Source: Croceivirga thetidis (lineage in GTDB: Bacteria; Bacteroidota; Bacteroidia; Flavobacteriales; Flavobacteriaceae). Taken from it: a stretch of DNA of 64,000 bases. Of the stretch, positions 27,861-32,351 are shown in pieces. Below the pieces are notes generated by a model. That model did no database searches. It was not told the DNA's origin and worked only from the letters and a program-made list of their open reading frames with translations. The translations under genes were made by a program, and so were the position numbers. Location of the stretch: positions 894,154 through 958,153 of the forward strand of contig NZ_JAAWWL010000001.1 in assembly GCF_012272815.1 (NCBI RefSeq). The letters run 5' to 3'. How positions within the stretch are numbered: the first letter of the stretch is position 1; every line of letters starts with the position of its first letter.

Positions 27861-28331
27861 ATGGCAAAGTCTTATTCTCAAGAACGTATAAAAGTTCCAC
27901 GTTTTAATGAACAATCGGGATTCTATACCACTCCTGAACGCTCAAAGATAATGTCAAAGATTCGAGGCAAGAATACCAAACCTGAACTGGCATTACGAAA
28001 GGCACTTTGGGCTGAAGGCTATCGCTATCGTATCGACTACAAAAAACTGATAGGCAGGCCAGACATCCTTCTGAAAAAACATAAGACTGCCATCTTTATC
28101 GATGGAGAATTCTGGCATGGCTACAATTGGCCGGAACGGAGGGAAAAAATAAAATCAAATCGAGAATTCTGGATTCCAAAGATTGAACGAAATATTCAAC
28201 GTGATTCTGAAGTTAATGCCGAACTCCAAAAATTGGGTTTTACTGTTTTTAGGTTCTGGCAAAAAGAAGTTGACAAAAATCTAGAGTCTTGCCTAACAAA
28301 GGTTTTGAATCACTTAAAGAAAAATAAATGA
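27861..28331 (+). CDS. Vsr-like very short patch repair endonuclease (DNA mismatch nicking)
   Basis: A 156-residue Vsr-family protein. Key segments are TTPERSKIMSKIRGKNTKPELALRKALW, GRPDILLKKHKTAIFIDGEFWHGYNW (catalytic Asp68, Phe84, Trp85, His86) and FRFWQKEVDKN. Vsr normally nicks at T:G mismatches left by cytosine methylation. In Escherichia coli it is zinc-bound through cysteines and His; those cysteines are absent here and the Thr-His pair before the FW pair is replaced by Ile-Asp. No cytosine methyltransferase is adjacent. The stop overlaps the next start (ATGA). Confidence 0.85.
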   Translation: MAKSYSQERIKVPRFNEQSGFYTTPERSKIMSKIRGKNTKPELALRKALWAEGYRYRIDYKKLIGRPDILLKKHKTAIFIDGEFWHGYNWPERREKIKSNREFWIPKIERNIQRDSEVNAELQKLGFTVFRFWQKEVDKNLESCLTKVLNHLKKNK

Positions 28332-31133: not shown

Positions 31134-31151
31134 AGCTCAAAATAGGAAAAC

Positions 31152-31183
31152 AAAAAAGCGAATCCAATTAGATTCGCTTTTTT
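31152..31183 (-). terminator. Intrinsic terminator after small gene B
   Basis: AAAAAAGCGAATC-N6-GATTCGCTTTTTT is a perfect 13-bp stem, T-rich at the end on both strands. On the minus strand it is 17 bp after the 36-codon frame at 31200-31310. It lies upstream of the GNAT start. Confidence 0.8.
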
Positions 31184-31199
31184 GAGCTAGCATAAAGGT

Positions 31200-31310
31200 T
31201 CAAATCATGAACAGCTTTCGTGTTAATACAAAAAGAGCCCTAACATACTGCCCTTTTCGTTTTGATGAAAGATGCTCACTCATCGAATCACGATAGATTG
31301 AATTTTGCAT
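31200..31310 (-). CDS. Candidate small protein B, 36 residues
   Basis: ATG at 31310 opens 36 codons ending in TGA at 31200. The product starts MQNSIYRDSM and ends TRKLFMI. It has a basic middle (SSKRKGQYVR) and an aliphatic last third (ALFVL), suggesting an amphipathic or membrane-associated helix. It resembles the neighbouring 35-codon frame in size, a Ser-x-x-Glu-x-Leu start of the helix and the RKLFM ending. It has a full promoter pattern upstream and a strong terminator 17 bp after the stop. No known family is recognised. It is too short for routine gene finding. Coding function is inferred. Confidence 0.5.
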   Translation of the reverse strand: MQNSIYRDSMSEHLSSKRKGQYVRALFVLTRKLFMI

Positions 31311-31333
31311 CTTACTATTGATTTGGGAACACC

Positions 31334-31364
31334 TAAATCTATTTTAAAACCTTTTAAATTCAAA
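31334..31364 (-). promoter_or_regulatory. Candidate promoter of small gene B
   Basis: On the minus strand TTTG (31364-31361), exactly 19 nt, then TAGATTTA (31341-31334), one mismatch to TAnnTTTG. The leader would be about 17 nt. Confidence 0.6.
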
Positions 31365-31407
31365 AACTATGTTGCAAAGTGATTCGAAACTGTTGTATTC
31401 CATAAAA

Positions 31408-31437
31408 AAAGGACTGAAATACAGTCCTAATTTTTTT
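31408..31437 (-). terminator. Intrinsic terminator after small gene A
   Basis: AGGACTG-N5-CAGTCCT is a 7-bp stem with A-run and T-run on its two sides, so it works on both strands. On the minus strand it lies about 30 bp after the stop of the 35-codon frame. Confidence 0.75.
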
Positions 31438-31462
31438 GTTGAGTAGTGTTGGAAAATCTTGG

Positions 31463-31570
31463 TTATAGCATAAACAATTTTCTGACCAACATCTTAAATC
31501 CGCTATAGAAATCACTGCGGTAGACCTGAAGCTCTTCTTCAACAGATCCTTGATTAAATTTAGAAAACAT
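31463..31570 (-). CDS. Candidate small protein A, 35 residues
   Basis: ATG at 31570 opens 35 codons ending in TAA at 31463. The product starts MFSKFNQGSVEEEL and ends VRKLFML, with LQVYRSDFYSGFKM between. The N-half is acidic and the C-half basic and hydrophobic, suggesting an amphipathic helix. It shares size and the RKLFM-aliphatic ending with small protein B 150 bp away. A -7 box at 31604-31611 and a terminator at 31408-31437 enclose it. No known family is recognised. A 60-codon frame overlapping here in another register runs through the terminator and is not preferred. Confidence 0.5.
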   Translation of the reverse strand: MFSKFNQGSVEEELQVYRSDFYSGFKMLVRKLFML

Positions 31571-31697: not shown

Positions 31698-32351
31698 TTA
31701 TAGTGCCATTTCAGGTACTTCTGATGGGGTAATCAAGGTGCCTTCAGTTGCATTTTTGATATCTTCCACACTAACCCCAGGGGCCCTTTCCAATAAATGA
31801 AATGCTCCATTTTCCACTCCTAAAACGGCCAAATTGGTTACGATTTTTGTTACACAACCTACTCCTGTAAGCGGAAGGGAACACTGTTGTAGTAATTTGG
31901 ATTTACCTGCTTTGTTGGTATGCATCATTGCTACAATGATGTTATCAGCTGAAGCAACAAGATCCATTGCTCCACCCATACCTTTGACCATTTTACCTGG
32001 AATCTTCCAATTTGCTATATCTCCGTTCTCTGCAACCTCCATAGCACCTAAAATTGTGAGGTCAACGTGTTTTCCACGAATCATACTAAAACTCGTTGCA
32101 GAATCAAAAAAAGAAGCTCCGGGCAAAGTCGTTATAGTCTGCTTTCCGGCATTGATGATATCAGCGTCTTCTTCCCCTTCAAAAGGAAAGGGACCCATGC
32201 CTAAAACACCGTTCTCACTTTGAAATTCAACACTAATATCCTCACGTACAAAGTTGGCTACCAAAGTGGGTATACCAATACCAAGATTAACATAGTAACC
32301 ATCTTTAACTTCCTGGGCTATACGTTTGGCAATTCCGTTTTTGTCAAGCAT
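31698..32351 (-). CDS. scoB: 3-oxoacid CoA-transferase subunit B
   Basis: A 217-residue CoA transferase subunit. The catalytic Glu is in [14 protein letters not shown] (about residue 44-57). [11 protein letters not shown] is also family-like. With subunit A it moves CoA from succinyl-CoA to acetoacetate or a similar 3-oxoacid. The gene overlaps the end of subunit A by 8 bp, so the two are coupled. The exact acid cannot be deduced. Confidence 0.93.

Follow-up and report, generated by a model that had tools for sequence, protein, structure and literature searches.

Two frames of about 35 codons, here called P1 and P2, lie between scoAB and a GNAT acetyltransferase gene in the window, the 64,000-nucleotide stretch of the Croceivirga thetidis genome analysed here. 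Genes of 26-45 codons are easily missed in annotation, and the locus raises the question of whether the two frames encode related proteins, how they are controlled and where their products would act. An earlier note, made from the letters alone, took them for possibly paralogous genes; its coordinates, its minus-strand placement, its lengths of 35 and 36 residues and its C-termini (RKLFML in P1, RKLFMI in P2) are all confirmed (Table 1). Our main reading, to which we assign a probability of roughly 60%, is that both belong to a scoB-linked microprotein family that would be switched by a LytTR-type regulator and act in trans.

Table 1. Features of the P1/P2 locus, numbered from the first nucleotide of the window.
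Feature	Position	Strand	Basis
P1 microprotein gene, MFSKFNQGSVEEELQVYRSDFYSGFKMLVRKLFML	31463..31570	minus	35 aa; orthologues after scoB, profile matches, pS/pN
P2 microprotein gene, MQNSIYRDSMSEHLSSKRKGQYVRALFVLTRKLFMI	31200..31310	minus	36 aa; C. lutea counterpart
P1 intrinsic terminator	31410..31428	minus	terminator scan; fold z -4.9 (31400-31440)
P2 intrinsic terminator	31151..31184	minus	terminator scan; fold z -7.7
P2 upstream direct repeat ACAACA-N15-GCAACA, 21 bp, LytTR-type	31370..31396	minus	sole RCAACA-N15-RCAACA in 64 kb
TTTG, -33 element of P2 promoter	31361..31364	minus	sequence
TAGATTTA, P2 -7 box	31334..31341	minus	55 nt after first repeat
CCCAAATC box, P2 leader	31320..31327	minus	sequence; occurs in short units too
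scoB, 3-oxoacid CoA-transferase subunit B, syntenic anchor	31698..32351	minus	TIGR02428 1.8e-96
GNAT acetyltransferase, usual gene 3' of P1	30618..31133	minus	PF00583

The kinship of the two frames can be weighed against chance within the window. An ending of the form [RK]K[LI]FMx occurs in two of the 4580 stop-terminated frames of at least six codons, these being P1 and P2, and the score of their local alignment (36) is equalled in 18 of 5000 shuffles; the related ends thus go beyond chance, as had been supposed. A Ser-x-x-Glu-x-Leu segment that was put forward as a second shared trait is literally present in both (SVEEEL and SMSEHL), but it is lost in aligned relatives and means little, and this resemblance was dropped. 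No known family had come to mind, and indeed neither peptide has a profile match in NCBIfam, Pfam or PHROGs, while searches of solved structures with the profiles A2 and A3 reach best E-values of 0.25-0.75, which are chance-like. Rfam covariance models give no match in the window at gathering score. Each frame is followed by a hairpin and a T-run whose fold far beats its shuffles, although the scan of that 4-kb stretch returns five terminator-like sites where 3.0 are expected (sd 1.8). Of the promoters claimed for the two genes, that of P2 is present exactly as TTTG-N19-TAGATTTA, whereas that of P1 is a weak match, TATCTTTT, judged by eye. A scan for sigma-70-type promoters, which omits the TTTG-N19 type, finds 9 sites with 9.3 expected and hence no excess. 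Taken together, the picture of related small genes with control signals of their own is supported, and P1 and P2 may be two short mRNAs, each encoding a microprotein of about 35 residues that is predicted to be helical. Elsewhere in the window, a Vsr-type endonuclease gene (PF03852) occupies positions 27861-28331; a gene that looks similar by eye lies convergent after P1 in another locus (L045).

That P1 is a gene with a conserved protein is evident from related genomes. Of the 11 genomes of the genus, 10 have P1 in the gap that follows scoB, the anchor used here; only G010 shows none in the part that was read. Searching for the peptide across the family finds its frame conserved, with a profile of 11 P1 sequences matching 47 of 299 Flavobacteriaceae genomes at E<1e-6. 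Among 395 genomes across the phylum, the profile matches six genomes of Flavobacteriaceae and, weakly (6e-4), G487, a genome with no scoB match at E 1e-40; barring this weak match, P1 is confined to the Flavobacteriaceae in that set. A collection of named genomes, scanned after preselection for the words [IV]QVY[RK][NS]DF[FYL], yielded 160 confirmed P1 loci, of which 80 were kept; they come from Maribacter, Flagellimonas/Allomuricauda, Zobellia, Eudoraea, Croceitalea, Kriegella and others. Their neighbourhood is conserved as well. Among the 79 loci used for neighbour counts (L171 is uncalled), 69 have a co-directional scoB within 700 nt, one has it at 706 and two have it farther away; seven have none in the stretch read, two of them (L139 and L173) being cut by a contig end. 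Downstream, a GNAT gene follows within 400 nt in 61 of the 79, lies farther away in 13 and is absent in 5.

The changes between relatives are mostly synonymous. Over the last 25 codons, 36 pairs from nine of the ten scoB-anchored genus sequences (L020 was left out) give a pS of 0.674 and a pN of 0.109, and a larger set agrees (0.862 and 0.168), its pN being biased low because the sequences were picked by motif. Judged by these substitutions, P1 is a conserved protein under purifying selection. Conservation extends to a polar middle, QVYxxDFxSG, and to a basic and hydrophobic C-terminus, [RK]KLFM plus an aliphatic residue, which is nearly invariant across genera. A type I toxin-like membrane peptide would likewise be short, end in basic and hydrophobic residues and have its own promoter and terminator, but P1 has its conserved polar middle and the peptide is mostly single copy, at one locus and kept over many genera, so that we consider a toxin very improbable.

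The C-terminal motif leads to further members. A search with it recovers a P3 form of 40-42 residues (NLPExPT...LTKKLFML), which also follows scoB, as does a P4 form of 26-29 residues (...KNTxxLLKNVLYVAKKVFLLM). At E<=0.01, the P3 profile matches 137 of the 299 Flavobacteriaceae genomes; P1 is present as well in 13 of these. Of 40 such loci inspected, 26 with matches weaker than 1e-6, 37 have a frame with the family ending, and it is among these loci that the P4 form came to light. Neither the P1 nor the P3 profile matches in 128 of the 299, and the peptide is therefore dispensable for Flavobacteriaceae. Among 76 of these negative genomes, chosen for completeness, the P4 profile matches 33 at E<=0.1 and just 8 at <=1e-3. 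In a set of 70 loci, 48 P3-type peptides were called, 41 of them with a co-directional scoB upstream within the stretch read; in the 22 loci where no peptide was called, the ending rule excluded the P4 form. Three further family members were flagged after scoB (G031, G060 and G075). In the loci read from genus g152, perhaps Flavobacterium to judge by its size in the sample, and from other families of the order, scoB has no recognisable peptide within 900 nt, and frames flagged there were rejected as unlike the family by eye. P1, P3 and P4 can be aligned over their C-terminal halves with a mean column identity of 45%, and because of this alignment we treat them as one; in our judgement they form a single family that is usually located in the gap downstream of scoB. 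As a separate observation, CAAATC copies, often about 39 nt apart, recur in P3 leaders (L204-L220, L224-L253), and the final copy in many P3 loci already belongs to the frame, contributing to the codons for NLP.

These neighbourhoods bear on the suggestion that the frames encode leader peptides, in which case P1 would attenuate the downstream GNAT gene via its terminator. The frequent GNAT neighbour within 400 nt of P1 and a terminator-like stretch between the two, seen by eye in the loci read, would suit such a role. However, the gene after P1 is convergent in L045, L046 and L080, and none of the 48 P3-type peptides has a GNAT gene downstream within the stretch read. In 8 of 10 listed P3 loci, moreover, the stop codon of the peptide abuts a convergent gene, ABC transporter-like by eye, so that neither a terminator nor a cis-regulated gene would fit in between; the P3 form has retained the peptide and not the terminator. 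Neither the identity nor the orientation of the downstream gene is constant across the family, and we therefore give leader-peptide action little credence. It was dropped as a reading, the co-directional downstream gene being conserved in P1 loci and not family-wide.

Besides the protein, the P1 loci share a promoter element with the 9-bp word TTCACAACA. Counted without L134, L171 and L173 from the 80 named loci, and with the window included, 76 of 78 P1 promoters contain ACAACA and 56 contain at least two copies, against 1.5 in shuffles; 52 adjacent pairs are exactly 21 bp apart. When the window is excluded, 53 of 77 P1 loci have the repeat pair, and in 50 of these 53 promoters a TAnnTTT[AG] box starts at an offset of 55 or 56 nt from the first repeat. 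This box is close to TAnnTTTG, which an excerpt of the Flavobacterium psychrophilum work gives as the -7 box of sigma-A (PMC9723704); only 24 of 79 P1 promoters have the strict TAnnTTTG form, compared with 5.9 in shuffles. The P3 (41) and P4 (18) promoters have another conserved region, distinct from that of P1, which reads roughly AAATGTTAAA..TGCATTTCATCGA..TGTTTTAA..CATATTAGCA.TCCCAAAT when merged by eye. Near-repeats at 21 bp are present in 16 of the 41 P3 promoters (3.3 in shuffles) and at 20 bp in 5 of the 18 P4 promoters (1.0 in shuffles).

In the window's own genome, the letters place the control element at P2. The P1 promoter of the window has no ACAACA repeat, and the pair upstream of P2, where just six letters of each repeat match (RCAACA), is the only one of its kind in 64 kb, with 0.04 expected; the -7 box stands at exactly 55 nt. 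P2 is a diverged second copy that is also present in C. lutea, where a 36-residue frame between P1 and the GNAT gene aligns to it with a score of 39 (equalled by 1 of 5000 shuffles) and is likewise preceded by the repeat pair, with the box at 55. A second copy in G157 is a weaker counterpart, with no repeat found upstream. Of the three family profiles, P2 fits that of P3 best (18.4 bits, versus 13.2 for P1 and 12.2 for P4). With few counterparts and an N-terminal half that is not conserved, P2 could be taken for a chance frame beside a real P1, but the promoter element at its exact spacing, the C. lutea frame that matches P2 in length as well as in element and spacing, and the fit to the P3 profile make this a far-fetched explanation. 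The promoter is the strongest evidence for P2 as a gene.

The full pair, CACAACA-N14-CACAACA, reaches beyond the microprotein genes. It has 181 matches in 55 P1-bearing genomes, as opposed to 3 for the reversed pattern, and occurs at least once in 54 of these 55 and in 2 of 25 comparison genomes; only one of 12 P3 comparison genomes has it (G203). By our own count, at least 17 sites among the places listed are at the P1 promoter itself. One site in the window's own genome is flanked by the gene for a Response_reg-LytTR regulator of 234 aa and that for a HisKA_2/HATPase_c kinase of 658 aa (L401), and a short terminated unit lies between these regulator and histidine kinase genes (L401:6305-9521). 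Elsewhere, sites precede the gene for a CHU_C/Ig protein, followed by PorP/SprF, and the gene for an LRR protein. As a pattern of sequence matches, the distribution of the element is regulon-like.

LytTR regulators bind 9-bp repeats that are 12 bp apart, according to the part of PMC2766830 consulted here. The P1 promoters have, upstream, two direct repeats of about 9 bp separated by 12 bp, and the gene for a regulator with REC and LytTR domains adjoins a site in the window's own genome. Both features recur in known regulons of the AlgR/AgrA/LytR type such as that of SilA, which in the same excerpt combine direct repeats of this size and spacing upstream of the promoter with a regulator gene that adjoins a site (PMC2766830). 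They differ in the repeat word, here TTCACAACA, and in the candidate targets, here short units, microproteins and secreted surface proteins. In the window's clade, a LytTR-type response regulator may thus bind two TTCACAACA-like repeats, 21 bp apart, and switch the family promoter. The same regulator would also control its own kinase locus, the genes for secreted surface proteins and, in addition, a group of short non-coding RNAs. LytTR regulators also serve peptide pheromone systems (PMC2766830, in the part consulted), and P1 could by analogy be an exported signal under LytTR control. Yet its C-terminus is nearly invariant across genera and no export signal is seen by eye, and we regard a pheromone-like role as the least probable of the readings considered.

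Returning to the LytTR-switched microprotein, the predicted structure offers a hint of how it would act. A single helix is predicted for residues 4-34 (mean pLDDT 75.9, lowest at the N-terminus). The hydrophobic moment is high for the P3 and P4 examples, reached by 61 and 43 of 2000 shuffles, and is not high for P1 and P2, reached by 487 and 723 of 2000. The proposal that the frames encode membrane-associated peptides is therefore compatible with the helix and the hydrophobic, basic C-terminus, but amphipathy is unsupported for P1 and P2. Since the C-terminus is near-invariant to its last residues, it points to docking on a partner or a membrane, and the peptides would act in trans, most likely with their C-terminal helix docked to a membrane or to another protein. 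SpoVM is an amphipathic-helix microprotein, and microproteins of its type have a similar length and a helix able to dock on a membrane; P1 and P2, their amphipathy being unsupported, are likened to it by length and predicted helix.

Sites of the same element also stand before short terminated units that lack a long frame. Of 72 distinct sites, 43 lead into a terminator before any 60-aa frame, a share that is biased because the regions were partly chosen for tandem or repeated sites; 26 lead to a frame, 2 to the family peptide and 1 to neither. In 30 loci not chosen for tandem sites, 12 are sRNA-like, a label that combines a loose terminator finder with the lack of a 60-aa frame, while 15 have a frame, 2 a peptide and 1 another outcome. 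A TAnnTTT[AG] box at the same offset of 55 or 56 nt is present in 39 of the 72, all of them sites other than the paired P1 promoters, and in 0 of 72 in a control stretch; 33 of the 72 sites read have no -7 box at 50-61. No shorter frame shared between units was seen by eye in 11 regions. The short units that we chose for alignment fall into two groups (23 and 12 sequences) that contain the CCCAAATC box, and the longer group has ACCTACTT ahead of the terminator. A CC[CA]AA[AG]TC box follows 29 of the 72 sites and is part of the consensus of the short-unit classes A and B. Tandem arrangement at intervals of 260-430 bp is common among the units, and no Rfam model matches at gathering score in 26 loci. 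Seven loci (L405, L409, L415, L421, L422, L424 and L426) hold short terminated units with LytTR-type repeats, several of them in tandem and some close to genes that look by eye like hflX and a porin gene; they are a candidate multicopy sRNA family without an Rfam match.

The nearest analogue of these units appears to be FopS of Bacteroides, a multicopy sRNA family that is described together with RbpB (PMC11697453, seen in excerpt). Like the short units, the FopS/RbpB system of the Bacteroidota has, in that excerpt, paralogous short RNAs with a promoter and a terminator, which share a conserved box in their single-stranded 5' portion. Unlike FopS, the units described here have a LytTR-type element and some members encode a conserved peptide; their transcription is predicted from sequence signals, and they have no Rfam match at gathering score in a release that may or may not hold FopS.

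The shared architecture invites the reading that the P1 and P2 transcripts are dual-function RNAs. The transcript itself, with boxes that resemble CCCAAATC and ACCTACTT, would then do most of the work, as in the non-coding members, and the peptide would play a subsidiary part. The microprotein genes resemble the short units in promoter geometry, in their small size and in having a terminator and boxes in the leader, and a CC(C/A)AA-type box is present in 39 of 53 P1 leaders, with like boxes in many P3 and P4 leaders. However, the peptide is conserved far better than its synonymous sites, and the P3 form has kept the peptide without the terminator; we therefore hold a primary role of the RNA to be unlikely, although it deserves serious attention. 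A bolder and slightly more doubtful proposal is that the LytTR system of marine Flavobacteriaceae drives a multicopy set of short RNAs, which would use their CCCAAATC boxes to titrate an RNA-binding partner that they share. Microprotein genes linked to scoB would then be coding members with the box in their leaders, and non-coding decoys would be coupled to the dose of microprotein. For the LytTR-switched family itself, we infer a two-component system that would control short RNAs, some of which encode trans-acting microproteins.

The titles of the literature on flavobacterial small proteins and sORFs, LytTR regulators, small RNAs and start sites (F. psychrophilum, Maribacter, Zobellia) gave no hit to this family or regulon. 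The microprotein family is retained across a large part of a major family of marine bacteria, at a single locus and with its own conserved promoter region. Through its promoter element it points to a candidate two-component regulon that includes short units, which makes both the peptide and the RNAs directly testable; the DNA switch that P2 has in common with a set of short units likewise opens an overlooked regulatory circuit to testing. For the P3 form, 1.2 Mb of the 3.09-Mb genome G117 was searched. This part holds no close LytTR relative (best identity 29%) and one match to the P3 promoter element, which precedes a short terminated stretch with ACCCTAAATC. Peptides that end in RKLFMV, KKILMF and KKLFMI also occur away from scoB (L074, L075 and L077), with neighbours that by eye are a peptidase or hydrolase gene in L074 and L075 and a sigma factor gene in L077.
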